A stretch of DNA of 64,000 nucleotides from Magnolia sinica (Eukaryota > Streptophyta > Magnoliopsida > Magnoliales > Magnoliaceae). Of this stretch, positions 12,246 to 58,478 are shown piece by piece. The first letter of the stretch is position 1, and each line of letters opens with the position of its first letter. Under the pieces are notes generated by a model. That model did no database searches. It was not told the origin of the DNA and saw nothing but the letters and a program-made list of their open reading frames with translations. The stretch covers positions 63,512,001 to 63,576,000 of the forward strand of contig NC_080588.1 in the NCBI RefSeq assembly GCF_029962835.1, written 5' to 3'. Position numbers and translations under genes: made by a program.

Positions 12246-12905
12246 TAGCTGTCCAATTGCTTCTAACACTGTGGCCTATCTTTTGAGTTGGGCAGGCCTT
12301 TCTTTCAGGCCAAGTCATCTACATAGTGGGACCCTCAAGATGGATGGACTGGATCTTGCACTTGTGTGGAACGTTATGCATGTCCTGGTGCCCAGGCCAG
12401 GCCATTTATCACTGGCCCAGTTACCAGGCTTGGATTTCCGGTCCTTGGGTCAAGTGTGGGGGGAAGCAGATTGGATGGTGACCCCAATACCACCCAGCTA
12501 GGTGGTGTTTGGTGCTGCGGGGCCCAGTGTGATGTATGTGTTTTATCCATGCCATCCATTCGTTTTGCCAGCTCGTTTTAGCTGTCCAATTGTTTCTAAC
12601 ACTGTGGCCTATCTTTGGGCAGGCCTTTCTTTCAGGCCAAGTCATCTACATAGTGGGACCTTCAAGATGGATGGACTGGATATTGCACTTGTGTGGAACG
12701 TTACGCATGCCCTGGTGCCCAGGCCAGGCCATTTATCACTGGCCCAGTTACCAGGCTTGGATTTCCGGTCCTTGGATCAAGTGTAGGGGGGGAAGCAGAT
12801 TGGATGGTGACCCCAACACCACCCAGCCAGGTGGTGTTGGGTTCTGTGGGGCCCAGTGTGATGTATGTGTTTTATCCATGCCATCCATTCATTTTGCCAG
12901 CTCAT
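12246..12905 (+). repeat. 333-bp tandem duplication
   Basis: The block starting TAGCTGTCCAATTG at 12246 recurs at 12579 and continues in register (TTTCTTTCAGGCCAAGTC, CCAGTTACCAGGCTTGG, GCAGATTGGATGGTGACCCC) to about 12905 with a few percent difference. Each copy ends inside the left arm of a GGGCCCACC foldback, so that element has one complete copy and one stray extra left arm. The shared TTTTAG at the joints could mark the recombination point. Confidence 0.9.
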
Positions 12906-13301
12906 TTTAGGGCATGAGCCCAAATATGAAGCAGATCCGGAGCCCAAGTGTACCACACCACAGGAAACAGTGATAATTGTATGCCCACAATTAAAAACTT
13001 CTTAGGGCCACAAAAGTTTTGATCAAGCTGATATTTGTGTTTTCCCTTCATCCTGGCCTGTGCGACCTTGCCAACAGGTTGGATGGAAAATAAACGTTAT
13101 GGTGGGCTAGGTAGGTTTCAACAGTGGGTGTCATTATCCCCATGTTTCCTGTGCTGTGGTCCACCTGAGCTTTGGATCTGCTTCATTTTTGGGATCATGC
13201 CCTAAAATGCGCTGGCATAATGGATGGACGGTGTAGATATAAAACACATACATCACAGTGGGCCCCACAGCGCCCATTGGAGTCACCACCCAATCCACTT
13301 C
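12792..13301. mobile_element. GGGCCCACC-family foldback MITE, GATTGG ends
   Basis: The left tip GAAGCAGATTGGATGGTGAC is mirrored by the right tip (reverse complement GAAGTGGATTGGGTGGTGAC). The core words TGTGATGTATGTGTTTTATC (12857) and AAACACATACATCACAGTGG (13241) are inverted to each other. Inside the left arm, CCAACACCACC and GGTGGTGTTGG make a perfect hairpin (12812-12840). No target duplication could be matched. It lies about 330 bp before the MUSTANG start codon. Confidence 0.75.
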
Positions 13302-13630
13302 TGTTCAGAGGTGCAGGCCCTGGCCTTATAGGGCTGGGCTGCCTGACTCATTGCCACCCTATTTTCCACGAATTACTATTTCTCTAAGATTACACTAAAA
13401 TTATCATTTTCATCCTATATTCTACTAATTTGCTATCCTAGATAATTATTTATTTGCTGCTCTTGACTGACTCCAAGTATCTTCCCCTACAGTGTTTTCC
13501 CCACACTGTCATTTCATGAAAATTGATTTTAGTCATATCTTGCCTCAGAAGCTAGCTTACTGATTTATAAGAAAATATTGTACAGGACATGGGCAAAAGG
13601 CAGGAATCTTAATAGAGCATTGAAGGAGCT

Positions 13631-15382
13631 ATGGAGACTTACAATTTCTTCGTTGGGCAAGAGTTCCCCGATGTCAAGGCTTTCCGAAGAGCGATTAAAG
13701 AGGCTGCCATTGCTCAACACTTCGAGCTTAGGATAATAAAGAGTGATCTGATTCGTTACTTTGCCAAGTGTGCTAAGGAAGGCTGTCCATGGCACATACG
13801 GGCAGTTAAACTACCCAATGCTCCAACCTTCACAATAAGGAGCCTTGAAGGGACGCATACCTGTGGCAAGAATGCGCAGCTTGGCCATCATCAGGCATCA
13901 GTAGATTGGATTGTGAATTTTATAGGGGAACGTCTGCGAGACAATGTACATTACAAGCCGAAGGATATATTGCAGGACATTCACAAACAGTATGGGATCA
14001 CTATACCATACAAGCAAGCATGGCGGGCGAAGGAAAGGGGCCTGGCTGCAATTTATGGATCTTCCGAGGAAGGATATTGCCTTCTTCCAGCATACTGTGA
14101 ACAAATAAAGAAAACCAACCCTGGAAGTGTCGCGCAAGTGTTCACGGTAGGATCCGACCATCGATTTCAACGACTATTTGTCGCTTTTCATGCATCAATC
14201 TATGGCTTCGTAAATGGTTGTTTACCCCTTGTTGGGCTGGGTGGAATGCCATTGAAAAGCAAGTACCTTGGCACCTTACTTTCTGCCACATGTTTTGACG
14301 CGGATGGCGCTTTATTTCCATTGGCCTTTGGTATTGTTGATGTAGAAACTGAGGATAGCTGGATGTGGTTTTTAGGAGAGTTACATAAGCTGCTAGAGAT
14401 GAACACTGAAAGGATACCTCGCCTTACAATCTTGTCTGATGGACAGAAGGGCATTGTAGATGCCGTTAGAAGGAAATTTCCGAGTGCATCCCATGGGTTT
14501 TGTATGCGTCATCTAAGCGAAAACATAGGCAAAGAGTTCAAGAACTCAAGGCTCGTCCAGCTTCTTTGGAAGGCAGCTTATTCCATTACTACTACAGGAT
14601 TTAAAGAAAGAATGGCAGAGATTGAAGAAGTTTCTGCAGATGCAGCCAGGTGGATTCAACAGGTTCCACCTTCACGTTGGGCTGTAGCATATTTTGATGG
14701 AGCACGATTTGGCCATCTTTCTTCAAATATTGAAGAGTTCAATAGATGGATCCTTGAAGCACAAGAACTTCCCATAATCCAAGTAATAGAACGGATTCAT
14801 AGTAAGCTGATGGCCGAGTTCAGCGAACGGCATGAGAAAGGTTTGAAATGGACATCGATACTTGCCCCGTCAGCTGAGAAGCGCATGTCAGAAGCAATTG
14901 CCCGTGCAAGCGGCTATCAAGTGCTACGTTCAGATGAAGTAGAATTCGAAGTTATATCCGCTGACCGCTCGAATATTGTGAATATTGGCACTCGTTCTTG
15001 TTCATGTCGTGATTGGCAAGTCTATGGCTTACCATGTTCACATGCTGTTGCAGCACTGCTCTCATGTAGAAAGGATGTCTATGCATTTTCTGAGAAGTGT
15101 TTCACTGTTGCTAATTACCGTGAGACGTACTCGCATGCAATACACCCCATTCCGGATAAAAGTGAATGGAGCAAGGGAAATGACACTCTAGGGGATGAAG
15201 ACATTAGAGTTGTGCGGCCACCAAAATTCCGCCGTCCTCCAGGGCGCCCTGAAAAGAAGCGGCTATGCATAGAGGAGCTTAATCGTGAAAAGCATACCGT
15301 GCATTGTAGTCGTTGCAACCAAACAGGACACTATAAGACAACGTGCAAAGCAGATATCATACCAAGGATAGAACAGTTCTAG
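13631..15382 (+). CDS. MUSTANG-type domesticated Mutator transposase, 583 aa
   Basis: A single-exon nuclear protein of the MUSTANG (MUG) family, host genes derived from Mutator-like transposases; At5g16505 and At1g06740/At2g30640 are the closest I recall. Domains in order: MuDR-type N-terminal zinc region (C47, C52, H76, C78); transposase core about 180-375 with LKSKYLGTLLSAT (208-220), ILSD (267-270) and GFCMRHLSEN (289-298); SWIM zinc finger C457-x-C459-x9-C469-x-H471; basic linker 528-543; CCHC knuckle C559-x2-C562-x4-H567-x4-C572. The METYNFFVGQEFPDVKAFRR start fits the family. The first catalytic Asp expected in GLDxxxLKSKY is Gly204, and the Glu region NIEEF (366-370) looks one residue short. 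I therefore infer no transposase activity and a regulatory DNA-binding role. No terminal inverted repeats flank it. It could still be a dead mobile copy, but the intact frame argues against that. Confidence 0.9.
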   Translation: METYNFFVGQEFPDVKAFRRAIKEAAIAQHFELRIIKSDLIRYFAKCAKEGCPWHIRAVKLPNAPTFTIRSLEGTHTCGKNAQLGHHQASVDWIVNFIGERLRDNVHYKPKDILQDIHKQYGITIPYKQAWRAKERGLAAIYGSSEEGYCLLPAYCEQIKKTNPGSVAQVFTVGSDHRFQRLFVAFHASIYGFVNGCLPLVGLGGMPLKSKYLGTLLSATCFDADGALFPLAFGIVDVETEDSWMWFLGELHKLLEMNTERIPRLTILSDGQKGIVDAVRRKFPSASHGFCMRHLSENIGKEFKNSRLVQLLWKAAYSITTTGFKERMAEIEEVSADAARWIQQVPPSRWAVAYFDGARFGHLSSNIEEFNRWILEAQELPIIQVIERIHSKLMAEFSERHEKGLKWTSILAPSAEKRMSEAIARASGYQVLRSDEVEFEVISADRSNIVNIGTRSCSCRDWQVYGLPCSHAVAALLSCRKDVYAFSEKCFTVANYRETYSHAIHPIPDKSEWSKGNDTLGDEDIRVVRPPKFRRPPGRPEKKRLCIEELNREKHTVHCSRCNQTGHYKTTCKADIIPRIEQF

Positions 15383-16564
15383 ATCTCTGTCTGTGTATTA
15401 TCAGTCTATAATCTCCCTAGAAAATTAGTTCTTATATATCATCTCACAGAATAGCATCGCATATTGGAGGCATGTCTTATCATGGAGTGTAATATGAATT
15501 ATGTATTGTATTTTAATGTACCGTGTTTGAAACAAACTTCAGGAATGGGGAAGATCATGTCTACTACTCTCTAATCAGATCATCACCGAAAGCAGTTTCT
15601 CTCCTCTTTCATCCATATCCATACCACACGGTTCTTCTTTTTTCTTTTTTTCTTTTCTCCAGCCAATATGGAACTGAACTTTGGGCCATCTGGCATACCT
15701 TGTAATACTGTTTCTTTATCCTGTAAGCAGGTAAGCAGCACAGGGACCTCGTCTAACTGGATTTCATGAGATCATATCTTTACTTTTCAGTTCTTTATTT
15801 TTTTCTGCTTAACAAGGCTGACTTCTGCTGTTGCCATTGCAGGAAGATGCACAAAATTGTTACTGTTCCGGTCCAACAGAGGTTCAATGCTATTGATGGG
15901 AGTCCTTGGAGCATTTTGTACTAGGTGTATTTTCAAACTCTTTCTTGCTCTTTGCTTTTAAGAAACTCTGTTCCCTTTAAACTGCCATGCATAAAATTCA
16001 GGGCAGGGAATGGGCCGGGTTGGGTTGAGCTAAATCACGATTTTGATTAGGCTTGGCCTGATAAATTCAAAATCTGGCCCAAAACCTGTCTCACATTTGC
16101 AACCCTGTGCATGATACTCGCCTCATGTATATGCAGCCCAAGGTATCAGAAGGACAAATGAGTTTATCTTCACACATTTGTATAATTTCAATTTTCCATC
16201 TTCCCCTTTTTTCTTTTTTCTTTTTTCTTTTTTGTTTTCTTTCTTCTTCTTTTTTTCCAGTGATGCCTTTTAAGTATTTTGGAGCCAGTTAAAGTGATTT
16301 TCTCTATTTTATACCCGCCTACATATCCATGATGCATAGATGTCCTTTTTCCTCACGTGAAATTAGTATTTCTGTCCCAGGAATGATGTACTAGTGTGAC
16401 AAATATCACCAAGATTTTGAAATCTCGCGATAATATAACGGAAAATACGCAATGTTAGCATCAGGATATTGTCGAAGTCTCAGCAGATTGTTAAATTTTG
16501 CATTTTTTTATTGCGATATTAACCCGAAAAATATTAACATATTAAGGAATTTGTTATATTATAT

Positions 16565-16607
<43 letters not shown>

Positions 16608-17780
16608 TTTATTTAATAATTTACAATAAATATTTTTAAATGTTTTTATTTTCAGTGAGATTTTTCTGGGATATGATAATATCCTGAGAAAAAACCTCAA
16701 ACATTGAAAATCTCCTGAGAAATCTCTGGGCCGAGAAATTACTGAGAACGAGATTTTTCACTTTTTAGTATGCTAGGAATACTCATTTTAGATGACAGGT
16801 ATCTGTAAGGCCCACTGCTCTGGACTCCAATCTGTAGCTTTGGGATATGGTTTTGTACTGGGTAATGGCCTGCTCTCTGGTTGGTAGGTGGCCTTGAAGC
16901 AATACGTACTGATGTGGAGGTGGTTCCCTGTTTCTGGATCATAATGTTTCCTTTATTGGTTAGATTCGAAAGATACCCGACACCATTTCTTTGATCATGC
17001 ACCTGCAACAATACAAGGATTGCTTGATTTTCGAAAAGGTTTAGCTTTTATGCATATATGAAGCCTATTTTAATAAGAAATGTGTTTTTACCTGGACTGA
17101 TGTTCTGATCTGGTTGTGTTGAAGTGGCATGGTTACTGCAATTTCATATACCAGGGAGGAAAGGTAAGATGGGTTTTCTTCTCTTTCTTTCATATGCAAT
17201 TCTTCTTCCTGATTGGTCAGATACATGCCGCTTGTGGTACCGCCCTATGTGACCTGGCAGGTATGACATAATTGTGGAATTGGGATGTCCCGGGCATGTA
17301 TTAAGCACCAGATATGGGCAGGTTACCAGTTCAACAAATTCATCAAATGCAAGCATGCACTTGATATGGGTAAAAATCTCTAGAGTAGTTTCTGATTATT
17401 GTTATCTAACTCCTCTCTGTTATGTTGCAGCAGTCAGATGGTTTCACGGGGGTTTTCACTGGAAGATGACAAGTCTTGTTACTGATTGTCCAAGCTGCAT
17501 CCATGGTCAGTTTTGATCCAGCATTGTTCAATGGGCTACAGTTTTCATGGCAATCTCGAGGGTTGGGATTTGTTCTGAGGGTCCTTTAACAAAAAAGGCT
17601 TCTGCTCATGGCTGCTAATCAAGATACAGGGTTCTTTTTATTACTCTTTGATTTGGGTGTTTTCCATTGTGGGTCGAAATTTTATATTGCTGGAGAAACA
17701 CCAAGGGCCTAGCAGCAGCATGCGAGGATCCAACACATTCATCCAGAAGGTTTTTGTCAAAATTCACACTTCGCGGGGAT
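15383..17780 (+). other. Downstream of the MUSTANG gene; possible spliced 3' region
   Basis: The first several hundred bases are a likely 3' untranslated region (AT-rich, TATTTTAATG near 15508). Good donor and acceptor words at CAGGTAAGCAG (about 15729) and TTGCAGGAAG (about 15837) suggest it may be spliced. From about 16400 to 16765 there is a degraded repeat with words like CGATATT and GATATTATC, including an AT microsatellite. No second coding gene is recognisable. Confidence 0.35.
16571..16603. repeat. (AT)n microsatellite
   Basis: About 16 uninterrupted AT units inside the degraded repeat downstream of the MUSTANG gene. Confidence 0.95.
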
Positions 17781-20541
17781 CTCACCTTCCAGGTGAAGTG
17801 ACTTACCAGTAGTTTGGACTTTGGCAGCTTGGATTTGGATTTTTACTCCAAATCCAGATTCCTGAGACTTCCATTCAGTTTGTTGTGCTTGGGAAACTGG
17901 TTCTTAGAAACTGATTCTTAAATTTGTACATGGAGTCTACATTTACTGAAATTTATTAACCGACTATATTGCGGAACATACTGTTCCCACAGCAGTCCCA
18001 AAATTAGATGGGTCCAACAATCCTAACCTCTCATTTTGGGCCACTTGTTTGTTGAAATAGGACTGTTGTATGTGTTTCATTTTTAACTGTTCAATGAATG
18101 TCTATCAATCTGATAATCAGATAATTAAATAGTTCATGATACATCTAAACTGGAATCATAATTTGGACAATTTTAATTTCACTTGTATGCCACGAGCAAT
18201 TTCAAAGTAAAATCTAATTACCTGCTTAAGATCTAATACAAAATGCTCTTTGATGATTGTGAAAGTTACATTATTGATGATCCCATTGAATGAGCAAAAG
18301 TCCTAGAGTTGGATGATTAGGATTGTTGGAATGGTGTGATTTTAAGCTATGAAACTGTTTAGCTCAAAAATCAATCATTGGTACATGTGTATTGTGTTGG
18401 GCATGCCAGAGCCTTTTATAGCTTGATCCAAACCAAATATCCATGACTCTCAAGTGTCAAAATAGACAGAGAGACCGTGAGCAGTCGTCTATGACCAGCT
18501 GTCTATTCAACTACCTATATGCGCAATTTGCAAAGGGGGATTCATCCTTCTAATGAATCTTTTTTAACGAATTTTTCTCACTGTGATAATAGAGATAATT
18601 CACTTCAGGTAATGTAATGACTAAAAAAACTCAACTGTATTAATTGAAATAAAAGTAAAAAAACTTACAAAAGTATCTCTCAGCAATCCAACGTCTGAGG
18701 TGTAGATGGTGAAACTCTAGATCTAAGTCTTCCTAAGTTCAACGACTTGGGCATAAATGAAGAAAATTACAGTATTGAAAAGAAAATAAAGTCTTCTTGC
18801 AATCCAACTGTTAATGTGGGTTACAGATTCAGTAAGGCTTCACACATATGGAATAGATGTATATACTCTTAGTCAAGGTTGGTCTAATGTAGTAGCATGG
18901 ATGGACGGGATTACACTACTCTTATGCTAAAGTCGGTCTAATGTGGATGAGTTGTCTTATTCTGAAATAAACTAAGAGAAAAGAAAAGTAGTGTTATGTT
19001 GTTGATTTGATTTGATGTGTTGTGTTGGGGAAGGCTCGGAACTCTTCAATCTTCTTCCTATTTATAGCACTTCAAGATGGTTGTATGGAGAGAGATCTTC
19101 GTAGTTATTTATCTTGTTTGTTGATGTGGAGATTAACTATCTAGACCCGAAGACAGTCGTGGCCTTTCGGACAATACCACTAATGTTGGTTTTTCATCAT
19201 AGGTTGGTCATTGGTTATGTGCACTTTCCACCCTTATTACGTTGATGAGAGTTTCTCTTGTGCTACCATATAATGGTAATAATCATCTTATTCTCCGCTT
19301 GAACGTGAACAATTCACCGTGATGTAAGGCCAACTTAGCATAGTCATTACTTCAAATATTTTCACCCTTAAGACGCACACATCGACAAACAGTAAAATTA
19401 TTTTGGTTATGGACATGGTAACAGTTTTGGAGAATCCCGTGAGAGTGGTGGGATCACTGTCTCATTAATCATGCTGAGATGGTTGTGATTGGAGAATTCA
19501 AGTGAGAGTGGTTGGATCACTGTCTTACTAATCATGTTTGGCTATAGACCCGTGACTGTTGGTTTTGAGTCATGTGTAGCATCATTACTAAGATGTAATC
19601 GTCAATCCACATTAGGTGCCGTGCCATGGGTAACAGCCATCTTAAGGCATGGTAGACCATGAGATTTTGGAATATGGCAGGCGTGGTAGCAACTTGGAGA
19701 GTGTGCGCATCTTAAACCGGTTGAGAGTGATTGCAGCACGACGGTGTGAGGAGTTATGGGTCCTGGGCATGCATGTAGTGTCTACATGGGCCATTCGGTC
19801 CGCATCCGGCACTTGGTTTGATGATCAGGACCGTTGGTCTAATAGACACCAACAAAACAAGGGATGCCCGAAAAACTGTTGAAGAATGGAAGATACTAAC
19901 TAGTGCAGCTGTACCATTTATTCAACTGTCCATTTGTAGGTCACTGATCAAGGGATCAGGATCTGGCAGCTCCAAGAGATTTTGGGGCGATCTACATTCA
20001 TTTTGGAGTTCATCAAGTCAGTGATCTCGATCAATAAAGCATGGTCTCACCTACAGAGGTAGAGCACACTCAATAACATCAACGGTCTACATTCATTGGA
20101 GCCTAAGCCAAATATTGAAGGGTTAGATCTTCCAAATTGGGAGACCCTTGCGACATCCCCCATCCATGATGGGTCAATCAGATGAACGACCAGGGTCACA
20201 AGACCATGGGCCCATATGAATCGAACTTAGTATTGACTGCTCCTCGCCTAGAGACTATACCAATCTTGCTAACCTTCTCCCCGCCATGTGATGATCCAGA
20301 CCGTTCATCTAGAAGTCCTGACGGAAAAAATCTACTTGTAGGTCTCATCATCCATCAAATAAGAAACATCTGCTCAGGAGATGAGTTTCTCAATCACCTT
20401 ATCATGAACGGCCACGATCTCCAACCAGAGAGATTCATTCCATGTTGACCATATACTATAGAAGCGTAAAAATGATCATAACGGCTAAGTGATTAACCAT
20501 TGGTCTGTTGAGAATTGGAAGGTACCTACAGTCATTTTGGA
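17781..20541. other. Gene-free stretch
   Basis: No conserved coding segment in any frame. The section 18540-19650 has a promoter-like TATTTATAGCACTTC (about 19062) and could be an old LTR read from either side, but no matching partner or target duplication is seen. 20160-20450 is unrecognised single-copy-looking sequence. Confidence 0.35.
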
Positions 20542-21088
20542 GGAGACGGATTGGTTACTCCCCCTGCCACCAGCCTGGTGGCTGATGGTCAGTGCTCTGT
20601 GGGCCCCGCCATGATGTATGTGTTTCATCCATTCCGTTCATCCATTTTTACAGATCATTATAGTTCTTGATCCAAAACATTAGAGGGACATAAATCTCAT
20701 GTGGACCACACCACAGGAAAACAATAGCGATTGAATATCCACCATTAAAATCCTCCAAGGGTCCACTGTACTGTTTATTTGACATCCAATCTGTTGATTA
20801 GGTCACACAGACCCATATGAAGCAGAAAAAAAAAAAAGAAAAGATCAGCTTGATCCATAACTTTTATGGCCCCAAAAAGTTTTTAATGGTTGACGTTCAT
20901 TCCACACTGTTTTCTGTAATGTGGTCCACTTGAGATTGGGATATACCTCGTTTTTTTCGTCCCATTCTATAAAACGATCTAAAAAAAATAGATGGACGGC
21001 ATGAATGAAACACATACATCATGGTGGGTCCCACAGAGCACCGGCCACAGCATTGGCTGGTGGCCGGGGGAGCAGCCCATCCGTTTCC
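20542..21088. mobile_element. Mutator-like foldback MITE with exact 9-bp target duplication
   Basis: Left tip GGAGACGGATTGGTTACTCC, right tip ending ATCCGTTTCC. CATTTTGGA stands directly on both sides (20533-20541 and 21089-21097), a perfect 9-bp duplication of the length made by Mutator transposases. The whole 547 bp is close to one long palindrome: core words CATGATGTATGTGTTTCATC (20611) and GAAACACATACATCATGG (21007) mirror each other. GCCACCAG and CTGGTGGC (20566-20582) make a hairpin inside the left arm. It has no coding capacity. Its right end lies about 320 bp before the PPR start codon, so it may sit in that promoter. Confidence 0.92.
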
Positions 21089-21406
21089 CATTTTGGAACC
21101 TTTTTTCAGTTGAACATGTACCATTCTATTTCTTTCTTAACCGTCTGTATGTAAGTCATAAATAGAAAGTTTACGATTTTCCTATCAAGAATATATTTAA
21201 GATTTAACAATCTAAGGTGGACCACAAGAGATTAAATGGCCTGGATTACGGATCCATGGGTCCCATTTGGCAGAACTGAAACTCGTGTATACCATGAAAG
21301 ATAAGCCCTTGCATGTCGGATAATTCCTTGTCTCTAGTTCTCAACTCCGAGGTCTTTCTGAGCCGAAACTCAAGAGAGAAAAATAAAAAAGAGGAGGAAA
21401 CAAAAA

Positions 21407-23890: not shown

Positions 23891-24365
23891 TTTGGATGAA
23901 GAAAAAGAAAAGGATTCTGCTGATGACCCACATGAAGTTAAGGACATGGATGGGTGATGACGTTGTTCAATGAGACCTTGTATGTGGGAGATTAATGAGT
24001 ATCCAATCTCCACCCAAAGATGATGAAAAGTGAAATCAGATAACATGGAAATAATCAGTAACTGAAATGAAATCCAAGAGTGGCACCACCCTGAATTGAG
24101 TGAAATCATCCCGTCGTCCTCCATGCCTCCTGCTGCCAGTAAGTGTAATGGCACTTCTCAAGACCCTTCGACAGTCAAGCTATTGTATTTAAGATTATAG
24201 TGCTCATCTGCAGACACCATTCCGCTGTACTTGACACCCTGAAGTCACGTCCCAAGCACTCCTAATTCCATTCAATTAGGAGTGGGACCATCTCTTAAAT
24301 TTCACTTAAATCATTTGCTTATGTTGCCATTCTTCTGATTTATAGTCAAGTTCAATCCATTTTCT
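23891..24365 (+). other. 3' flank of the PPR gene
   Basis: Probable 3' untranslated region followed by spacer. The first 70 bases are purine-rich. No gene, repeat or obvious poly-A signal stands out. Confidence 0.4.
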
Positions 24366-24369
24366 TCAG

Positions 24370-25420: not shown

Positions 25421-25429
25421 AAAAAAAAA

Positions 25430-40000: not shown

Positions 40001-43000
40001 CCACAGTATTATATCAACACATACCATCAATTGAGTTCTTGCTAACTGGCAGCTCCCCTGACATGCTGCGCTGTATAACAACCGCCATGTGGCTGTGACC
40101 TTTCTGAAACTCATTCAAGATGTCATACAAAGGCAAGTCTTCCGGAACCCTAGCATACAGTAGACCCAAACATCAGTGTGTACTGCTAATGATGTAAATT
40201 ATCACTGTATATTGACAAAATTGGATATAGACACACAGATATAGAAACTGTGCTTGAATTGCCAACACATCAGGACATGTTATTCAGAAAGGAAGCAAGA
40301 CACGAGCATTTGTGAAAACACAAGCAAGTAATGGATACCAGTGTTGGAAATGCATGTGCATGCATATGCGGTAGATCATACTCCGGTGAATGAGCAATAG
40401 GGTGGTGCCACCATGATTTTGAAGGTCATGTAGGGTGCATCAGGTGGGCCCAACCATGTAGACCTGACCAAGACATCAGCACTGTCCACTCATCATGCAG
40501 GCCACGTATACATTAAATGTAGACCGTTGTACATTGGCAATTTTTCTTAAACCCTCCACTTTTCATACACATGGCCCACCTGATGATTGGATTGGCATGA
40601 CAAACTGGTACGTGTGGCTGGCTGCATGTTGAGGTGTGTGTGGGATTTGCAAACCTCTTCAGGAGTAGAGTCAAATAAAACATTGTTGACTAAGAAAACC
40701 AAAGACGGTTGGTTTTTGAGCTGCAGGAGTGCAATTTGAATCTACTCCCTTCTCACTAGGTTTCCATCATTTTCAAAACTTGGCTTCACCACAGTTTAAA
40801 GACAGTTGTTCATATCTACCAATCATATCACAGCCACCAAAGGGGAGGAATGGAACAAAAAAAAAGGCATTCTTCCCAAAATATAGAACATACCATATAA
40901 AACAGTGAATGTGATGGATTCCTAAGACACGAAAAATGAATAAGGGAGGAACCTAATTGCACGATCCTTCAAAGTTACAACCTAGCTCGAATCTCGCTTA
41001 AGACTTGGAAACCCACACTTCCTAGCTATTTATTTTGAAACAGGTGCTTCCCCGCTCCAGCACCCAAATTTGTTGCCACTTCGCTTACACTTAATGTAAC
41101 TATAAAGGGGAAACAGTCTCATACCTGGGTTAAATACTGCAATATACAATAATCAACAATCCCATAAGCATGCTTTAGCGTACTTTTATCCAAGGTTCCA
41201 TGAACTTGAATTTTAGGTTGTGTTACGACCTATCACCAAATCAAAGGGACGGGGGTGTGCTTTGGGGCTAGACTATTGTTTCATTGTACGGGATGTGACT
41301 ATATTGCACAAACAGTTAGCTTTCAATGTGTTGGTTTTACTTTACCAATGCATGGATAAGTGATCGGTTATTGTCTCATTGCAACCACAATCAAAACTTC
41401 CTTTTGAACAATGTAACGTACCTCGGAATCTTGCGGATGGTAACATTTTTTACGGGTACCTCATCTGCAGGATGTATGGACAATAGATTCTTTACCTGCA
41501 ATTGAAATTAGACAATATGTGAGGCAGATGGGCAAGAAAATTAGAATATAAAGCTGTTGTTTTTTAGTATGATACATGGTTGATGGAAATAGAGGCCTTC
41601 TTGAACAGATTCATGAGTTAAACGAACAGAAGGGTTCATCATTTATATGAAATAATAACAAAAAGGATGGTTCTAGGTCATAGAAATGTTGCCAGAATCA
41701 GAATGTAACTGAATGTGTAGTGGTGTGCCGTAAAGGCCGTTACTTAAAGGTAACGGTAGCAACCGTTACACATTACGAGGTCGTAATGGCCGTAACAGCC
41801 ATTATGGAAAAAAATAACCCATAATTGCCGTTAACAGCACGTTAGGTACCTATAAAGGCCATAACAGCCCCGTAATTGTCTGTTATGAGGCAGATACAGG
41901 TTTTCCATACTTTTTAATCAACATTACAGGGCAAATACAGATTTTTTTTTTTTGGGGGGGGGATTTCAATAAAAAAAGATACCGTAACGGCTGTTACGTC
42001 CATTACGGGGGACGTAACAGCCGTTACGACCCATATCGTAAAGGTAACGGTGGTGACCGTTACTGTCACCGTTACCGTTACCGTTACAGAACACCACATG
42101 CATTCGGAAGAAGCAGAACCATTTGTTGAATCCCACAAAAATGCAGACATGGGATGCAGAAAACACTCCCATCTGCCAAAAGTGGCTCCAAAATGAGAAT
42201 GGAAGGATAACGGAGCAGAACTGTTATCAAGCCACTCTCATTCTGGGGGTGAATGCAGTCCCTTCCGCATTTGACAGACATCAAAACAGTACCTTGATTG
42301 CCAATCTAAATGTAGATGCTATTAACAAAAAATGCATATATACCAAAATAAGTCCAATTATATTTATAGGTTGTTCGTAGTAGACTGGCACCCTGCTGTG
42401 TCCTTTATCCAGAATCAACTTCATCAAATCCCTGTACAACAACAGAAGTGTAATGGACCTGGTCAGGAAAAAAAAAAAGTTCGGAAAAGATGATTCTATG
42501 AACCTTCGCCTTCATGAAGAACTCTGATACCTGTCAAGCCTTGCATTAATATCAATTGCAAAAGTATCGGATATAGGAGTCATGGCATCTCTAGCTGTTT
42601 TCTCTGTGAGTTCAAGAGCTCCAGCTATGATTGTTGTCTCATCATGAGTCAGTTCACCACCTTTTCCAGCCTGTTTACAATGGGAGCATTCACCTTCTTA
42701 TATTTGATGGTTTGAAACAAAAAGCACGAGTTTCCAAACAACAGATTAAAATGTAACTCCAAACAGAAACTAGGAGATTATTCATTTGACAAATGAGTTA
42801 GGGTGAGCTCAGTTGTACCCACTTCCCAGGGAGAATGTGACGAGTCCAAACCAAAGGTGAGATAAGAGCAGGTCTCATTTCAGTTGCTACCCAGTAGGGC
42901 TGTCAATGGGTCGTGTCCTGATATTCCTGTACCCTGACTGCCCGGGCCTTGGGTCCTCTCAGGTTGGTGCCTACCGGTACTGGGTAGCATATTTGAGGTC

Positions 43001-46000
43001 CCAAACCCAATCATGTTGAGATCGGGTACCCATCATGTACCTATCGGGTCTCACAACCCTTCCTTTTGGCGAGTGTTTGCAAGGGAAAGGACATGGCAAA
43101 AGGTACAATCATCCCATCACTTGCTGGACCACCCATAACTGTGACCTGCCTGGGCCCAGCATACATGGTCTGGCACTTTGCAATCAGAACTGTCCACTTT
43201 GCGTAGAGAATGGTGTAAGATTGCAATCATTGCATGATCCTGGCCATTCAATCCACGCCACTGAAACTAATTAATTGAAAGGCTTGCAGGTACGGGGGCA
43301 AGCGGTTGCTGTTGTATAACCAAAGCAATACAAGAGGGAACCACAATTTAGACAGCCTAAGTTCCCTTTTGGGCAAGTCTTCAATTGAAGATTCACCATC
43401 CTATCTATATGGAATTGATTTTTATTTTTATTTTTCTCTTTTCTTTTCTTTTGAAAGATATGGAATTGATATCATAGTACCTCCCGTCAGTGTTCAAGTT
43501 GTCGGTATCGTTACAAGTTTCGCTGACCGGAGATAAAGATATAATACCGTTATCGCCGATAATATCGCCGATAACTAGAAATGCGAAGAAAAATGGCGAA
43601 AAATGGGGAAATTGATGGAATTTTTCAGTAAAACTTCAGGGCATGCCTAAATACACATATTTGCATATTTAGGAATAAAAAAAATTACAAAACAATGCAT
43701 TAAATAATAAGTTTTCATTTAATAGGGCTCAGAAAGCATGCGTTGCCATAAGAAATCACTCCAATTGTAATCAAAATGAGTTTATATAATACTTTATGGG
43801 GCCCACTATAATCAAAATCACTCCAATTGTAATTAAAATGAGTTCATGTAATACTTTGTGGACCGAGTCAACTCTATGGGGCCCACTGATTTATATACTT
43901 TTATCCACTCCGTCCATCCACTTTACCCTATAATTATAGGGCTTGATTCCAAAGATGAAGCATATCCAATGATTAAGTGGACCACACCGCAATAAATAGT
44001 GTGAATTTGAACATCTATCGTTGAAAATTTCTTAGGGGCCATAGAAGTTTTGGATCAATGTAATTTTTGTTTTTTACCTTCATCGATGACTATGCGATCT
44101 TATGGACAGCTTGGATGACAAATAAAGATCATTGTGGGCCCTAGGAAGTTTTTAACGATAGGAATCATTGTCCCCACGGCTTTCCATGGTGTGGTCCACC
44201 CAAAATTTGGATCTGTCTAATTTTTGGGTTCATGACCTAAATTGATCTCGCCAAATGGATGGACCATGTGGATATAACACATACATCATGGTGGGGTCCA
44301 CGGAACTTGGTGACATCCAAGCCACCGAGGTCAACACACCCGCGGCTTTCACTCCAAAGGGACGCGGATTGCAGCCTACCCCTGCCCGGACGTATTACCG
44401 TCCAGGCAGGGATCTACAGGGCCCACCATGATGTAAGTGTTTTATCACGCCGTTCAGCATTTTTCTCAGATCATTTTAACATATGAGCAAAAACTGAGGC
44501 AGGTATAGGGCTTAAGTAGACCACAAACTGGGGATTGAACGTCCACCGTTAAAAACTTCTTGGAGCTGGAGAAGTTTTGGATCAAGCCGATATTTGTTCT
44601 TTCACTTCATCAACGTCTACATGACCTTATGAATAGGTTGGATGGTAAAAAAGCATCACGGTGGCCCTTAGGAAGGTTTCAACGGTGGGTGTCATTATCT
44701 CTGTATCTTCCTTTGGTGTGGTCCACTGGAGTTGTGGACCTACTTCATTTTCATTATTAGATCTTAAAATAATATAAGAAAAGCAATTAACGGTGTGGAT
44801 AAAATACTTACATCATGGTGGGCCCTACAGAGCCCTACTCGGACGGATTACCGTCTGAGTGGGGTAGGACGCAATAGAAGGGGACGCGGATTGCGTACCG
44901 AGTAACTTAGCACGCTAAGCGTACTGAGTAAAGTCTGTGGGGCCCACCATGATTTAAATATTTTATCCACTCCGTCCATCCTTTTTAACATATAATTTTA
45001 GGGCTCTAAACCAAAAACTAAGTACATCCAAATCTCAAGTGGACCTCACCACTGGAAACAGTGTGAATTGAAATTCTACCGTCCAAAATTTCTTGGAGCC
45101 ACAGAACATTTGGATCAATCTTTTATTTGTGTTTTCCCGTCATCCACGTCTGTGTGATCTTATGAACAGGTTGGATGATAAATAAACATCACTATGGGCC
45201 CTAATGAGGTTTCAACGGTGGAAGTCATTATTCCCACTGTTTCATGTGGTGTGGTCCACTTGAGTTTTGGGAATTCTTCAATTTTTGGCTCAACCACTGA
45301 AATGAGCTGGAAAAACGTATGGACGGTGTGGATAACCCACATACATTCACAGTAAGCCCAACTGAGTTTACTCAGCACGATAAAAGCGTACCGAGTAACT
45401 CATACGCAATCCGATTCTGTAAAAGGGTTTCAAAACCCGAAACCCTAAAAAAACTCGAGCAAAAGCTGCCGATAGAAGAGGTTCCGAAAAAGAACCCTAA
45501 AAACTCGAAAAATCTCTCCAAATTTCTCAAGATTTCGCATATTTTTCGCCCCATTAATTCTGATCAACGATCCTATTCTACAGGTACATACTTTCAAAAG
45601 TTTCTTTTTTCCCTTTTTTTCTCGATTTTTTTGGTATTTATGCAGCTCCCTATATTATCGTCCCTTTTATCGTCAAGGAGTTGTCGGCTACAGTTATCCC
45701 TTGACAGAGACGCGATTTTTGATTGACAACTGTATTTTACATTAAAAATTGATAAAATCGCCGAGTATTCGCCGATATTAGGAAGAGAAACGAAAAAAGT
45801 GAGTTTCGGTGTCGCAACTCCAGCGACACCGATAATATCGGCGATATTATCGATTTTTCGCCGATAATATGAACACGGCCTCCCATGGATTTTACTGATT
45901 TGATGGAATCAGATTTAGCTAGGTACTTGAGACCCAACCCAAATAGACCTGGTTTAGAAACTGGATACAGACCCCAAACCCTACCCCAATTTAAAAATGG

Positions 46001-49000: not shown

Positions 49001-49252
49001 TACGTAACGACCTTTACAGCCCTGTAACAGCTGTTACAACACACCATGTCTGGTGGGCTCCATGGGGGATTGGTAAAACCAGTTCTCTCCACTGATGGAT
49101 TTCCAGGCTTTTAACAGGTGGACCCATTTTGTGGTATATGGACTGACGGCTGCATTTTCTTTTAAAATTGTCCACCTGCAGCACAAAGATCCAATGGGAA
49201 AATTTTGTGCAGAATCATCCATCCATGGTGGGTAGCACCAGATGAGCAGTTT

Positions 49253-49283
<31 letters not shown>

Positions 49284-51834: not shown

Positions 51835-52080
51835 CCGATTCTACCCTCGCCTCCAAAAATCCCCAAAATGCCCTCAGAATATGGAAAGAAATAAAGAAGC
51901 AGATGAACAGGGACTTCCTCTCTACTTCAAGGAGCTCAGACGGAATTAGAATCTAGTTCCTGAATTTTTCTGCAATTCAGCGGAGCTTGTGGTTTTAGCC
52001 CTCATTTTGATGGAATTTACGGAGGAAAGGATCGAGAGAGGTTCTATAATTTTCTGGCAGCGGTGTATTTGAGAAGAGCA
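51835..52080 (-). promoter_or_regulatory. Presumed 5' untranslated region and core promoter of the CNNM gene
   Basis: About 230 bases of non-repetitive sequence precede the ATG on the minus strand before a foldback MITE begins at 52092. No clear TATA box was found. The transcription start cannot be fixed from sequence alone. Confidence 0.4.
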
Positions 52081-52091
52081 AGAGCGCTGAT

Positions 52092-52536
52092 GAAGCGGAT
52101 TGCGTGGTGTGCCACACAACACTGACCTCAGTGGTGTGTTGACGTCACCATATTCTATGGGCCCACCATGGTGTATGTGTTATATCCCCACCGTCCATCC
52201 ATTTTTTATAAATAATTTTATTAAATATCCTGAAAATGAGGGAGATAAAAATCTTAAGTGGACCACACCGTAGAAAGCAATGAGCAGCGATACGTACCAT
52301 TGAGACCTTCCCAACATGTTCATCAGGTCTGGATGAAGGTAAAACACAAATATCACCTTGATGCAAAAATTTTGTGCCTGGGAAGTTTTCAAGGGTAAGC
52401 ATTCAATCCCACTGTAGTGTAATCACATAAAATGGATGGACGGTGGGGATATAACACATACATCATATGGGTCCCACGGAACTTGGTGCACACCACCGAA
52501 GTCGGTGGTATGTGACACACCACGCAGTCGCCTTCC
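52092..52536. mobile_element. GGGCCCACC-family foldback in the CNNM promoter
   Basis: Left tip GAAGCGGATTGCGTGGTGTG, right tip (reverse complement) GAAGGCGACTGCGTGGTGTG. Core words at 52168 and 52455 are inverted. Hairpin CCACCGA..TCGGTGG (52492-52507) sits in the right arm and a similar one in the left. It starts about 260 bases upstream of the CNNM start codon. No target duplication could be matched. Confidence 0.75.
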
Positions 52537-53003
52537 GTTACGGAGAGGAGATGTGATGAATTTCAAAGGGCTTTGCTTTGCTAAGTCCAACGCATGTACA
52601 AGCTGGCGAATGCACATGCCACCGTATATGCCAGCGTGACAGAAAGGTAAAATATCCAAGCCATCCATCACGTGGACCTCACCGTATATATTCCACAGAC
52701 AAATGATAAAGGTGGTGCATTCAGTAGGTGTAACGTGATATTAGAAATAGGTGGATCGTTTAGAAAATTTCAACTGTTTTTTTTCAGAACCATAGAAATA
52801 TTCAGTTAATTGTGGGAAAAATAACCAACGGAGAGAACTGATAATTGTATTACATAAATTAAATAGTGTTTCCTTTCTGATGGATGGCTTGGATCTTTTA
52901 AATGATTCCAAGATGTCAGCTTCTAATGCTGAATAAAAAATGAAGAATGCAGCGAAACAAGGAAAAAAAAAGCTGGGGTCTGTCTCTTTTTTCTTTAATG
53001 CAT
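52537..53003. other. Spacer upstream of the CNNM gene
   Basis: Nothing recognisable; AT-rich, no gene. Confidence 0.4.
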
Positions 53004-53012
53004 CTACCGACT

Positions 53013-54113
53013 GGAAACGGATGGGCTCTACTCCCCCGACACCAGCGGAAGGGCTACTCCCCCGACACCAGCCAATGGCTGGTGGTCGGTGCTCTCTGGG
53101 CCCCACCATGATATACGTATTTCTTGCATGACGTCCGTATAATTTTACGGCATGAGACCAAAAATGAGATATATCCCAATCTCAAGTGGACCACATTACA
53201 CGAAACAGTGTTGAATGAGTGTTGACCATTGAAAATATTTTCAGGGCCATAGAAGTTTTGAATCAACCTGGTTTTTGTTTTTTCCCTTCATGTGGGCCTG
53301 TATGGCCTAATCTGAAATGGATTGGCTGCTACCCCTGACGCCAGCCCTGTGATGGTGGTCAGTACTATGTGGGCCTCACCATGATGTATGTGTTTAATCC
53401 ATTTCGTTCATCCATTTTTAAATATTATTTTAAGGCTTGATACCAAAAATGAGAGGGATATAAATCTCAGGTGGACCACACCAAATGAAAACAATAGTGA
53501 TTGGATATCCACCATTAAAATCCTCCTAAGGGCTACTGCACTGTTTATTTGACATCCAATCTGTTGATTAGTTCATAAACGCCCAGATGAAGGGAAAAAA
53601 ACAAAAATCAGCTTGATCCAAAACTTTTATGGCCCCTAAAATGTTTTTAATGGTTGACACTCATTCAACACTGTTTCCTGTAATGTGGTCCACTTGAGAT
53701 TGGGATATACCTCATTTTCGGTCTTGTATCGTAAAATGAATTGTAAAAATAGATGGATGGCATGGATGAAACACATACATCATGGTGGGGCCCACATAGC
53801 ACCGACCACCAACCATTGGCTGGTGTCAGGGGAGTAGCCAATCGATTTCTGACCTAATCAATAGATTGGATGTCAAATAAACAGTACATTAGGCCTTAGG
53901 AGGATTTTAATGGTGGATATCTAATCACTATTTTTTTCATATGGTGTGGTCCACAATAGATTTATATCCCTCTAATTTTTGGTATAAAGCCCTAAAATAA
54001 TCCTAAAAAATGGATGAACAGAATGGATGAAACACATACATCATGGTGAGGCCCATAGAGCACCGACCACCATCCACGGGGCTGGTGTGAGGGGGAGTAG
54101 CCAATCCGTTTCC
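53013..54113. mobile_element. Mutator-like foldback MITE, exact 9-bp target duplication, interrupted
   Basis: Tips GGAAACGGAT at left and CCAATCCGTTTCC at right. CTACCGACT stands on both sides (53004-53012 and 54114-54122), a perfect 9-bp duplication. A second element of the same family (53313-53850) is inserted in its middle. The left arm carries a doubled subterminal segment, and ACACCAGCCA..GGCTGGTGT forms a hairpin. Confidence 0.93.
53313..53850. mobile_element. Foldback MITE nested in the preceding element
   Basis: Tips TGAAATGGATTGGCTGCT and (reverse complement) AGAAATCGATTGGCTACT. GGCCTAATC (53304-53312) and GACCTAATC (53851-53859) form a 9-bp target duplication with one mismatch. The host sequence TATGRCCTAATCAAT continues correctly once it is removed, as in the sister copy near 56295. 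Confidence 0.92.
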
Positions 54114-54569
54114 CTACCGACTATCACCACTGAGCTACACGGATGGTAAAAGACGGAGCTATGCAAGGGAGAGGATTAGGTGTTACCCTTACCGTGCGGG
54201 CCACCTTAATGATATGGTATATATCCATGCCAACCATCCGTTTTTCTAGCCCATTTTAGGGATTAGTAAAAAAAATTAAGCAGATAAAATTCTCTGGTGG
54301 ACCACACCCGAGGAAAAAGTAGTGATTGAATGCCCACCGCTAAAATCTTCCCAAGACCCAACATAAGCTACTTGGTAATGTTTATTTTCCATCCAAACTG
54401 TTAATAAGGAAAAAAAAGACCTAGATTAATATTAAATACAAATATTAGGTTGATCCAAAACTTCTGTTGCTGACAAAAAACATTTAATGGTCATCTATCA
54501 CTTTCTCTAGTGGTGTGGCCCACCAGATATTGGGATATTTAAGGGGGCGTTTGGCGCATGGGTTTAAAT

Positions 54570-55191
54570 TAGGGGTGCACACGGGTCGGTTCGGTCCGAT
54601 TTTGGGGTGAAACCGGAACTAAACCGTTCCTAACGGTTCTTGGATATTCGGATTCAGAACCGGACCATTAGCACCCTATAACCGAATCGAAATCATACCA
54701 TTAAAACCGGTTCGGTTCCGGATCGGTTTCACGGTTCTAGGCTTTTTATAATTTAGCCCAATTGTATGTTTTGTTTTATAATCTAGCCCATGTCCATACG
54801 TATTGTGATCCATTTAATAAATGGTTTAGATATTGTATAAGGTGTGCAAAAATACATTTATAAAAACAATCAAATGGTGCATTGTAAACCATAAATCACG
54901 AGTTAATATATGAAAAAAATCAAAGGATTCCTGGTTCGGTTCCAAGTTCGGTTATAGGTTCAGTTCCACAGTTCGGTTCTGCGGTTCGGATCCACGGTTC
55001 GATTATATGAATCGGTTCACGATTCGATTCGGTTCTACATACCCCTAAACTGAAAACCGAACCGATGTAATCGGTTCTTTGATTTTTGGAACAGGAACCG
55101 GAACCGGTGCACTCTAGAACTGGACCAAACCGGACCATTTGGTCGGTTTCGATTCGGTTCCACGGTTCTACCAGTTCAGTGTACACCCCTA
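54570..55191. mobile_element. hAT-type MITE, 622 bp, perfect 8-bp target duplication
   Basis: The left end TAGGGGTGCACAC and the right end (reverse complement TAGGGGTGTACAC) differ at one base. GTTTAAAT directly flanks both sides (54562-54569 and 55192-55199). The arms are rich in CGGTTC/GAACCG words. It is inserted into another MITE whose GGGGCGTTTGGCGCATGGG end starts near 54544. Confidence 0.93.
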
Positions 55192-55349
55192 GTTTAAATG
55201 GGATTAATTGGGAGCAAGTTTTAAGATTATCATTACAATGTCCTGTTTGGGACTCAAATAAGGTGGACTCAAATAAGGTATGAGTTGTGAAGCCCTTTCT
55301 TAGAATCAATGCCTTGGCAAAAATTTCTACAATCTACTTTAAGTTTTAC

Positions 55350-55704
55350 GTGGCTAGTGGTCGGTGATATGTGAACCCCACCATGATGTATATGTTTTAT
55401 CCATGCTATTCATCCATTTTTAAATATATTTTTAGGGCTAGATCGCAAAAATGAAGTAAATATAAATCTCAAGTAGACCACACCATAGGAAAATAGTAAT
55501 GATTGAATTACACCATTAAAAACCTCCTAGGGCCAATTGTGCGGTCCACTTGAGATTTGGATCAAATTCATTTTTGGGCTCACACCATAAAATGACATGG
55601 AAGATTGGGTGGACGGCATGGATGAGACACATACATTATGGTGAGGCCCACAGAACACCGATCGTTAGTGGTAAGATGAGTAGCCAATCTGTTTCCAAAC
55701 ATGA
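55350..55704. mobile_element. GGGCCCACC-family foldback, left tip missing
   Basis: Core words at 55382 and 55625 are inverted, and the right tip AGTAGCCAATCTGTTTCC ends near 55697. The left starts abruptly without the GGAAACGGATT tip. Confidence 0.65.
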
Positions 55705-55803
55705 AGTGGGATGGCCTCAGCCATGGGATTATAAGACAATCCCGGACACAATGTAATCATTACATTTTGGTAACTCCATCCCACTTAAACCCATCTAATC
55801 TCA

Positions 55804-55985
55804 TGCTCCAAACACCCATCTTAAATTTCGGAAAACTTCCCAAAATGATCTTGGAAAATGAATGGATGGTGTGGATACATAAAAAATTTGTTAATGCTCC
55901 AAACACCCCTCTTAAATTTTGGAAAACTTTCCAAAATGATCTTGGAAAATGATTGGACGGTGTGGATACATAAAAAAATTGTTAG
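55804..55985 (+). repeat. 91-bp tandem duplication
   Basis: GCTCCAAACACCC...GGATACATAAAAAATTTGTTAAT is present twice, at 55805 and 55896, differing at only a few positions. Confidence 0.9.
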
Positions 55986-56021
55986 TGTGGCCCACACATT
56001 AGGAGAAACACCCACTGAGGT

Positions 56022-56559
56022 GGTAACGGATTGGCTACTCCCATTGACATCGGCAAATGGCTGATGGTCAGTGTTATGTGGGCCCCATCATGATGTATGT
56101 GTTTCATCCATGCCATCCATTTATTTTCAGAGATCATTTTACTGTAGAAGTCCAAAAATAAGATATATCCAATTCTCAAGTAGACCACGTTATAAGAAAC
56201 AATGTTGAATGAGGGTTGACCATTAAAAACATTTTGGGGGCTATAAAAGTTTTGGATCAAGCTTATCTTTGTTTTTTCTCTTCATCTGGGTGTGTATGAC
56301 CTAATCAATTGGTTGGATGTCAAATGAACATTATAGTGGGCCTTAGGAGGATCTTAATGGTGGAAATCCAATCGCTATTGTTTTCATGTGGTGTGGTCCA
56401 CTTGAGATTTATATCCCTTTCATTTTTAAAATAGAGCCATAAAATGATCTTTAAAAATGGATTAACGGAATGGATGAAACATATACATCATGGTGGGGCC
56501 CACATAGCAATGACCACCCGCCACCGAGCCGGTGGCAGGGGAGTAGCAAATCCGTTTCC
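56022..56559. mobile_element. Mutator-like foldback MITE, 9-bp target duplication (8/9)
   Basis: Tips GGTAACGGATTGGCTACTCC and ATCCGTTTCC. CACTGAGGT (56013-56021) and CGCTGAGGT (56560-56568) flank it. Hairpins CATCGGC..TGGCTGATG in the left arm and GCCACCG..CGGTGGC in the right arm differ from each other yet both pair. Confidence 0.9.
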
Positions 56560-56574
56560 CGCTGAGGTATTCAC

Positions 56575-57290
56575 ATTCCATTAGCGGTAGCGAGGTCTGT
56601 GGGCCCTGAAAGGATGAGTGTCCTATTCACACCGCCATCCATCCTTCTTTATTTTTGAAATTATTTTATGTTATGATCCCAAAAAGAGACGTATCTAAAT
56701 ATCATATGACCCCGTCATAGGAAAGAGCGGTGATGGAACACTTCTCATTAAAAGCGGAGCTGATTGGCTAGTGTACTTCACACCGTCAATGTCGCTAGTA
56801 TAATGACGTCAGCTAATTCGGTGGGTCGATCGTAAGGCATATGTTATATCCAAACTATTCTATCCATTTGGTGAGCTTAATTAAGGCTTGACATAAAAAA
56901 ACGTAAGACATATCTAACTATCAATTGGACTACACTGTAGAACACGGTGAGGGATTGGACATCTACAATTGAAGCACTTTTTAGGTTACAAAAGTTTGTC
57001 ATCAATATAAAATTTGTTTTTGCTCTTCATTCAGGTATTTTATTTGTGACCTTATGAATAGATTGGATGGAAAGTAACAGTTATGGTGGGCCTATCATGA
57101 ATTGCTTAACGGTGAAAATCATTACCAATGCTGCTATTTGTGGTGTGGTTCATATGATCTTTGGATGTGATTCATTTTTTAGATAGTGCTCTAAAATAAT
57201 CTCTAAAAATAAATTAACAGTCTAGATATAATAAATACATCAGTGTGGGGGCTATGTAACTTTGATCTCCTTTGAACCGTTCGTACAACA
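56575..57290. mobile_element. Two GGGCCCACC-family foldback remnants
   Basis: 56575-56750 is a left-arm remnant. 56750-57270 is a fuller copy with left GAGCTGATTGGCTAGTGTAC and inverted cores near 56850 and 57230. Confidence 0.55.
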
Positions 57291-57295
57291 AAACC

Positions 57296-58478
57296 GAAGC
57301 AGATTGGCTGGTGTACCACACACTAGCCATATAGCTGGTGTATTGATGTAAGCAATTTCTGTGGGTCACATCATGAGGTATGTGTTATATCCAAACCGTT
57401 CATCCATTTGGCGAGCTTGTCCTAAGGCTTGAGATGAAAAATAAAATAGATTTAAAGATAAAGTGGACCATACTACAAAAAGTAGTGGGAGATTAAACGT
57501 CTACCATTGAAACCCTTTTGGAGGTTACATAAGTTTTGGATCAACGTGAAATTTGTTTTTCCTCTTCATACAAGTATTTGTGATCTTATGAAAAGATTGG
57601 ATGAAAAAAAACGTTATGGTGGGCCCTATAAATATTTTAATGGTGAAAATCATTATCCTACTGCTATTTTTGGTGTGGTCCATTTGAGCTTTGGATATGA
57701 TTAATTTTTTTGAGGAATGCTCTAAAATAACTTTGAAAAATTGATGAACGATGTGGATATAATAAATACGTCGTTGCAGGGCTAATGTAACTTTGATCCC
57801 CTCTTAACTCTTAGGGCCGGTTTGATTTTCCAAATCCCTGGGAAATGCCCTTAAATGGTAATAATTATTTCCCTCCCTAATTGCTGCACTCTTCTACACT
57901 CTTCCCCACAATTGATTTGATGGCCTACTTTTTTGGTGTAACAAAGGCAAATATTGTAAAATATTTGTGGGTCCTACCATGATGCATATCATATATCTAC
58001 ACCGTTCATCCATTATGTTAGATGAATTTATAATATAAGCCAAAAAATGAAGCATATCCAAAGTTGAAGTAGACCATGCCATAGAAAAATGTGAATCAAA
58101 TACTTATGGTTAAAAACTTTCCAGGGCCACTGTTTCTTTTGGTAAGGGCTAGTTGAGTGTTGAATCTACCTCAATTTTTATCTCGTATCTTAAGATGTTG
58201 TGGTAAAATGGATGGACGGAACAAATATGTCATATACATCAAGATGGGGTTCAAAAATTTAAACTATGTTCTTTTGAACCGGTTTCCAAGAATAAAATTC
58301 CCATAAATATTCAAACGGGTGAAAAGGTAATAATCAACAATTTCCATGGTATTTACCGTTTCTAGGTGAAACGATGAAAATCAAACAGGCCCTTGGTAAA
58401 ACTCGGAGCTCCAGGAGCGTCGACACTAGTTTTCGCACATACACTAGCTATATAGTGGTAGACCAGCTAATCCGCTTC
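57296..58478. mobile_element. GGGCCCACC-family foldback interrupted by another MITE
   Basis: Left tip GAAGCAGATTGGCTGGTGTA, right tip (reverse complement) GAAGCGGATTAGCTGGTCTA. ACACTAGC..GCTGGTGT forms a hairpin in the left arm. An element at 57814-58392 splits it. No clear 9-bp duplication was found, though CGTAC lies near both ends. Confidence 0.75.
57814..58392. mobile_element. GGGCCTGTTTGATTTTC-ended MITE, nested
   Basis: Left end GGGCCGGTTTGATTTTCC and right end (reverse complement GGGCCTGTTTGATTTTC) are a strong inverted pair, the PIF/Harbinger (Tourist) style. Flanking TTA and TTG would be a worn 3-bp duplication. Its middle (57965-58260) resembles the GGGCCCACC core. Confidence 0.8.

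Follow-up and report, generated by a model that had tools for sequence, protein, structure and literature searches.

Many ends in a large family of short transposable elements in Magnolia sinica carry a module of three units of about 11 bp, in the orientation +,-,+, that lies between a conserved tip and a conserved core around GGGCCCACCATGATGTATGTG. The family was examined in a 64-kb piece of contig NC_080588.1 (positions 63,512,001 to 63,576,000; 41% GC; from an assembly of 1.84 Gb in 127 contigs), which we call the window and whose numbering is used throughout, and in further copies sampled from one contig (C1) of this one genome. An earlier note on the window had described, between tip and core, a short hairpin of unrelated sequence in each subfamily and had proposed that the structure is selected. 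That hairpin is the pair formed by the second and third units (U2/U3). The first unit (U1) lies outside it and is complementary to U2, giving a second fixed dyad axis. Units are alike within one end and differ between subfamilies, with the layout retained. We favour, with moderate confidence, the view that these three oppositely oriented, subfamily-specific recognition units are putative sites of a cognate Mutator-like transposase; the family behaves as non-autonomous Mutator-like miniature inverted-repeat transposable elements (MITEs).

Layout was measured from the start of the GGATTR hexamer (the tip ends CGGATTR). Class profiles place the dyad axes at 16.0 and about 29.5 nt from this point and show a direct repeat with a lag of 27 nt (28 in classes b and c). 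Arms of class c read GCGTACTGAGT-T-ACTCAGTACGC-loop-CGTACTGAGT, which is one word three times in the orientation +,-,+. When runs of at least 5 pairs were counted in 160 arms (50 of class a, 10 of b, 33 of c, 61 of d and 6 arms of E, A, J and G picked by hand in the window; the 154 class arms were selected via the tip plus at most nine further bases), axis 16.0 had such a run in 68 arms and axes 29, 29.5 and 30 in 29, 34 and 15, against a mean of 2.2 and a maximum of 13 (at 30.5) for other axes. When a, b, cT, d1 and A-L were each represented by a single consensus or arm, the summed longest run was 32 at axis 16 (mean 9.1 and maximum 19 in 2000 shuffles) and 51 at axes 29-30 (mean 13.7 and maximum 22 in 2000 shuffles). 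A further 67 arms that do not match any of the four class patterns, although many are class variants, include three shared with the 160 and one of a new kind (locus L093); they peaked at the same two axes, at 3.07 for 16.0 and 3.00 for 29.5, with other axes at 1.3-2.6. The 67-arm and 160-arm tests are the counts least affected by pattern selection. The class c unit, allowing at most 1 mismatch, was found only near the ends in nine elements, and all three units were present at both ends in 6 of the 9.

Most classes follow a degenerate word, N-S-S-T-N-N-T-G. Among 42 units (14 rows, read in one direction), T occupies positions 8 and 11 in 37 units each, positions 6 and 7 are S in 39 each and position 12 is G in 32, while positions 9-10 and 13-15 vary; the exceptions are concentrated in subclass d2, G-L and G-R. 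In the ten rows left when these and the 4-loop form of class a are set aside, T occupies position 8 in 30 of 30 units and position 11 in 28 of 30. The word is supporting rather than independent evidence because U2 and U3 partly inherit the pattern via complementarity to U1, and U1 may itself derive from the tip. Subfamilies differ in all units at once: where class b has the dinucleotide GC, class c has CG, in each of the three units, and E-R differs from subclass d1 at positions 9, 10 and 14 in all three.

Three oppositely oriented recognition units would explain the fixed axes, the pairing, the sequence turnover, the extra unit and the restriction of the class c unit to the ends. The cognate Mutator-like transposase would bind the units through its DNA-binding part, and the bound protein may keep the end at a set distance from the cut. 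Subfamilies would then differ because transposase lineages differ in specificity; a change in specificity would change the three units together, and neighbouring inverted units would remain complementary. The transposase is the likely bound protein because Mutator terminal inverted repeats (TIRs) contain its sites (PMC3310237). A more tentative suggestion is that one lineage of rigid geometry, with six sites per element, founds subfamilies that are not cross-recognised by altering the word at its variable positions in all sites together, in step with its transposase. The variable spacing of CACC and GGTG had been considered as an argument against binding sites and was abandoned once the three units were recognised.

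Several observations weigh against this interpretation. Subclass d2 keeps the U2/U3 dyad with no U1/U2 run of at least 4, as if U2/U3 alone mattered there, and the word is broken in its U2 and U3. G-L and G-R agree with neither axis at runs of at least 5, nor with the word. The axis-16 match of class d is 5 pairs only, with a run of at least 5 in 17 of 61 arms and at least 6 in 2; the units of class a agree at 5 of 11 positions, and the J run at 29.5 is only 4. The constant T of U1 may be due to descent from the shared tip. The consensus rows of a, c and d were picked by patterns extending into U2/U3, class n is a single arm, and classes E, A, J and G are represented by one or two window arms each. 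The classes are also partly non-independent (identity up to 0.66 among E, A, J and G, 0.50 between a and A and 0.45 between b and c). Finally, 421 control GGATTR sites without the family core showed a slight excess at the axes (19, and 12, 16 and 9, versus a mean of 7.4); these are probably diverged family members.

The elements of the window, with -L and -R denoting left and right arms and TSD a target site duplication, are as follows.

12791-13302, + strand: element A; left stem 12809-12844 with 14 pairs and 1 mismatch, right arm without a hairpin.
12802-12839, + strand: A-L terminal module; U1 12802-12812 (+), U2 12814-12824 (-), U3 12829-12839 (+).
20542-21088, + strand: element B, resembling class a; stems at 20566-20582 and in the right arm; 9/9 TSD CATTTTGGA.
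44360-44880, + strand: element C, class d like; stems 44380-44411 and 44833-44864; right tip incomplete.
44882-45418, + strand: element D, class c; stems in both arms, the right at 45368-45398; TSD 7/9.
52091-52537, + strand: element E; stems 52114-52139 and 52489-52512; three-unit module at both arms.
53013-54113, + strand: composite F; interleaved F1 (53013-53850) and F2 (53313-54113); stem 53066-53084.
55354-55696, + strand: element H, resembling class a; truncated on the left (by eye), hairpin undetectable on the right.
56022-56559, + strand: element I, resembling class a; stems on the right (56517-56539) and, weakly, on the left (p=0.36); TSD 8/9.
57295-58479, + strand: element J; U1 57306-57316, U2 57318-57328, U3 57333-57343 (by hand); U1/U2 stem 57305-57329.
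6920-7411, + strand: element G, an older relative outside the earlier list; weak stems (p=0.07 and 0.33); TSD 7/9.

The dyad axes of A-L lie at 12813 and 12826.5 (module coordinates set by hand from offsets). Element A has a tandem duplication of its left end plus flank (12462-12580 and 12791-12910), with a few base differences between the two hairpins. In E-L (52091-52179) and in several class b and J-like arms, a TGACGTCA palindrome, which we take to be a bZIP-type site, lies between U3 and the core, and in such arms the core is about 10 bp further in (by eye). Element J is split by a different MITE-like insert at about 57820-58395 (bounds by eye) with ends GGTTTGATTTTC...

The shared core described in the earlier note was borne out: 15 window sites match it with at most 3 mismatches where 0 are expected, and a core profile search added further diverged arms. 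Exact matches genome-wide numbered 2696 for the core, 2813 for the class d tip and 3665 for the class c tip, with 0 for each reversed-pattern control. All seven hairpins that had been cited are legible near the positions given, with small slips of letters; the one at 53064 has GGCTGGTGG as its 3' arm and the stem at 57326 contains one T.G pair. Twenty-five arms, identified only by the core and without the tandem copy at 12514, were folded in 40-nt windows; the mean z was -1.25 directly upstream of the core, with 7 of 25 arms below -2; the overlapping offset -30 gave -1.10 and the remaining offsets lay between -0.60 and +0.46. Of 128 stem-loops in the window, 22 have a GC content of at least 0.5, and 10 of those 22 have their centre within one of the 24 arms whose tip is recognisable; these arms make up 1935 of 64000 bases.

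Twelve of these 24 arms (the tandem copy included) exceeded shuffles at p<=0.05 with only Watson-Crick pairs counted. The centre of symmetry in 11 significant arms, F1-L being excluded for its 27-nt insertion, lay 25 to 31.5 nt from the start of GGATTG, and in 8 of the 11 at 28.5-29.5. In 8 of 21 arms a stem scoring at least 5 had its centre at exactly 29.5 nt, counted from the tip hexamer; in 150 shuffles the count did not exceed 3 at any position. Passing arms beyond those cited in the earlier note are 12462+ (the tandem copy), 21088- (p=0.050), 44880-, 44882+, 45418- and 52091+. The statement that the hairpins are always paired fails, as the other 12 of 24 arms are not above shuffles: H-R, F2-L, J0-L and P-R show nothing above them, F1-R, F2-R, I-L, J-L, G-L, G-R and J-R miss p<=0.05, and A-R (13302-), judged against A-L, has lost its hairpin. 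For 56022-56559, where both arms had been said to pair, the right arm does (p=0.023) and the left does not (p=0.36). To call the hairpins unrelated in sequence was too strong, as GGTG/CACC recurs in a, E, A and J and TACTGA in both b and c; among the well-sampled classes, d stands furthest apart.

Genome copies were treated likewise. In 88 loci picked by the core alone, 264 core-profile arms were found, 105 of them with a tip at no more than 1 mismatch; the best stem score was at least 6 in 66 of the 105, and 44 of these 66 were centred 28-30.5 nt from the tip. In class d, 14 of 55 distinct arms exceeded shuffles and 12 of the 14 were centred at 28-30.5. In the genome sample, then, hairpins stand at a fixed position and well above chance without being universal, and many copies are decayed, a mixed outcome for the refuting condition set in the earlier note. 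The structure, its fixed position and its sequence turnover are borne out in the window and the genome sample; constant pairing is not. Conserved pairing without conserved sequence is best understood as an array of recognition sites in opposite orientations.

The decay bears on one alternative, that a single ancestral hairpin has been inherited and is decaying with its function not kept. The many decayed arms (12 of 24 not above shuffles) and the common motifs of related classes agree with it, and the word itself may be ancestral, yet both dyads are present in class consensuses that have little sequence in common, and we regard this explanation as very unlikely.

It is also possible that the folded DNA hairpin or cruciform is itself the selected signal, any paired sequence at the right place being sufficient, for which Helitron 3' hairpins and single-strand insertion sequences provide models. 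Such a signal fits the fixed centre, the long stems of differing sequence (A-L, for instance, has 14 pairs and the class c consensus 12) and the fact that heads can be flipped, and its best case is d2, which retains U2/U3 pairing only. It does not predict U1 or axis 16.0, and the complementarity with a 1-nt centre in a, b and cT (one axis each) is needless for a loop; the 9-bp TSDs, moreover, resemble those of cut-and-paste Mutator-like elements (MULEs). Nor was covariation of the arms, to which the earlier note had looked for support, significant: compensatory changes among sister copies were not significantly above shuffles. The observed number of paired cells and the covariation score were reached, respectively, by 67 and 122 of 500 shuffles for 8 class a arms, 199 and 79 of 500 for 26 class d1 arms and 41 and 59 of 500 for 22 d2 arms. 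A swap test of self versus permuted partners gave 0 of 20000 in both groups tried, although shuffled sequences carry an inherent self-advantage (mean 1.37, maximum 4.15; observed 3.74), and a half-swap test gave 1918 of 40320. Mismatches showed no clear strand bias (11 G.T versus 6 A.C by our own count). Most of the sister copies are probably dead descendants of a few masters. We therefore consider a selected fold unlikely. The proposal that the structure is a transposase signal remains our best guess, while selection on the hairpin fails to predict U1.

A mutational origin, in which template switching or gene conversion between inverted units rewrites copies with no selection on structure, has to be weighed against the rearrangements that are seen. 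Compared with the remaining TIR, the hairpin head points the other way in 4 of the 26 class d1 arms (C-L and class d arms in L079, L109 and L137), heads are of opposite sense between the two arms in C (44380-44864) and in D (44888-45398), the hairpin is wholly or partly missing in 13302- (A-R), L102, L129 and L097, and an arm segment is duplicated at 53013-53100 (by eye). The loss of hairpins is an instability expected of palindromes, and flipped heads and head deletions together suggest that palindromes are involved in rearrangements. This origin leaves unexplained the constant distance of both axes from the tip across subfamilies and the shared word with its near-constant T positions, and we judge it quite unlikely. 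DNA folding at U2/U3 could nevertheless occur, and deletions and flipped heads are compatible with it; the function of the recognition units need not be folding. As a separate observation, class c elements (L139-L147) have two distinguishable ends, one GAAATCGG-like with a TTTTAT-like head and one GGAAGCGG-like with a TAAG-like head; all nine with both ends available have one end of each type (by eye), some with heads deleted.

Membership of the Mutator superfamily is indicated by the TSDs and TIRs. Among 149 inward tip pairs 300-900 bp apart, 29 had a perfect 9-bp TSD and 17 an 8/9 match, counts that include overlapping loci (26 and 14 distinct by hand); 4000 random pairs gave 2 and 24. MULE TSDs are 8-10 bp, typically 9, which is the size seen here. 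In the window, two of nine element spans have perfect TSDs (B and composite F) and I has 8/9. Element C has only 7/9, with ends shifted, and the flanks of A, E and J match at 6/9 at best and hence show no TSD. A single perfect 9-bp TSD, CTACCGACT, encloses the whole of composite F, whose inner end pairs match at 5/9 and 6/9, as if the interleaved composite had moved as one unit. MULE TIRs are long, typically >100 bp; ungapped arms of 125-229 nt, 74-89% complementary, occur in A, F and I, while those of B and E reach just 64 and 69 nt. Together, the 9-bp TSDs and the long TIRs of A, F and I fit Mutator-like MITEs. The elements are short, have TIRs and reach high copy number, and 43 of 46 tip pairs with a TSD of at least 8/9 span 400-599 bp; assignment as MITEs is based on length, TIRs and copy number. 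Helitrons have no TIR, no TSD and one 3' hairpin, whereas this family has TIRs, 9-bp TSDs and the module at both ends. Nor does the arrangement match a VANC-type array, as the class c unit (the only one examined in this respect) alternates and is confined to near the ends of nine elements. Rfam gave no match at the gathering threshold, and the exact core pattern was absent from viral and prokaryotic collections.

Two further features of the window are worth recording. About 330 bp downstream of element A begins an intact open reading frame of 583 aa (13631-15382) that has a CCHC-like motif at its end (by eye); PF10551, the MULE transposase domain, matches part of it (14006-14965; E 9e-18). The frame resembles a domesticated MULE gene, presumably of the MUSTANG type. 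A cluster of stem-loops of the GTAACGG/CCGTTAC type at 41750-42063, one with 19 perfect pairs, probably comes from another repeat family.

How a transposase and its ends change specificity while staying mobile is an open question, and a hard one because several sites must change at once. One genome with thousands of copies, in several subfamilies that differ in this manner, would make such a code readable from sequence and testable by unit swaps. A warning also follows: fixed hairpins at the ends of transposable elements can be inverted arrays of binding sites rather than folded signals.

At the level of titles and abstracts, with subscription literature mostly not covered, we found no description of such a module in plant MITEs. 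The ends of Spm/En and Ac carry short transposase-binding motifs in both orientations, in more copies and with less regular spacing; they are similar in having motifs both ways near the ends but belong to other superfamilies and are less regular than the present module. Within the Mutator superfamily, our comparisons extend to the accessible parts of the papers cited. The TIR of maize Mutator/MuDR contains a MURA-binding motif of about 32 bp (PMC3310237), which parallels the putative transposase site inside the TIR here, but a single motif is described there and no +,-,+ module. The foldback-like MULE families MuTAnT (PMC4486113) and Tm1 (PMC3169594) have long, internally structured TIRs and foldback ability, as does the present family, while a fixed two-axis module with swapped sequence is not described in those accounts. 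MULEs of Aedes aegypti, including Muta1, have 8-9 bp TSDs, many non-autonomous copies and tandem subterminal repeats (9 copies) (PMC5225508); TSD size and abundant non-autonomous copies are common to both, but our units are three, alternating, at fixed spacing and with a subfamily-specific word. In Arabidopsis VANDAL MULEs, short motifs are recognised by the MULE-encoded protein VANC, differ between related elements and coevolve with it (PMC5735166, PMC10398659). VANC motifs form high-density arrays of one orientation in non-coding DNA, whereas the present units alternate and, in class c, lie at the ends; the two systems are alike in short motifs that vary between related elements, with recognition by a protein being putative in ours.
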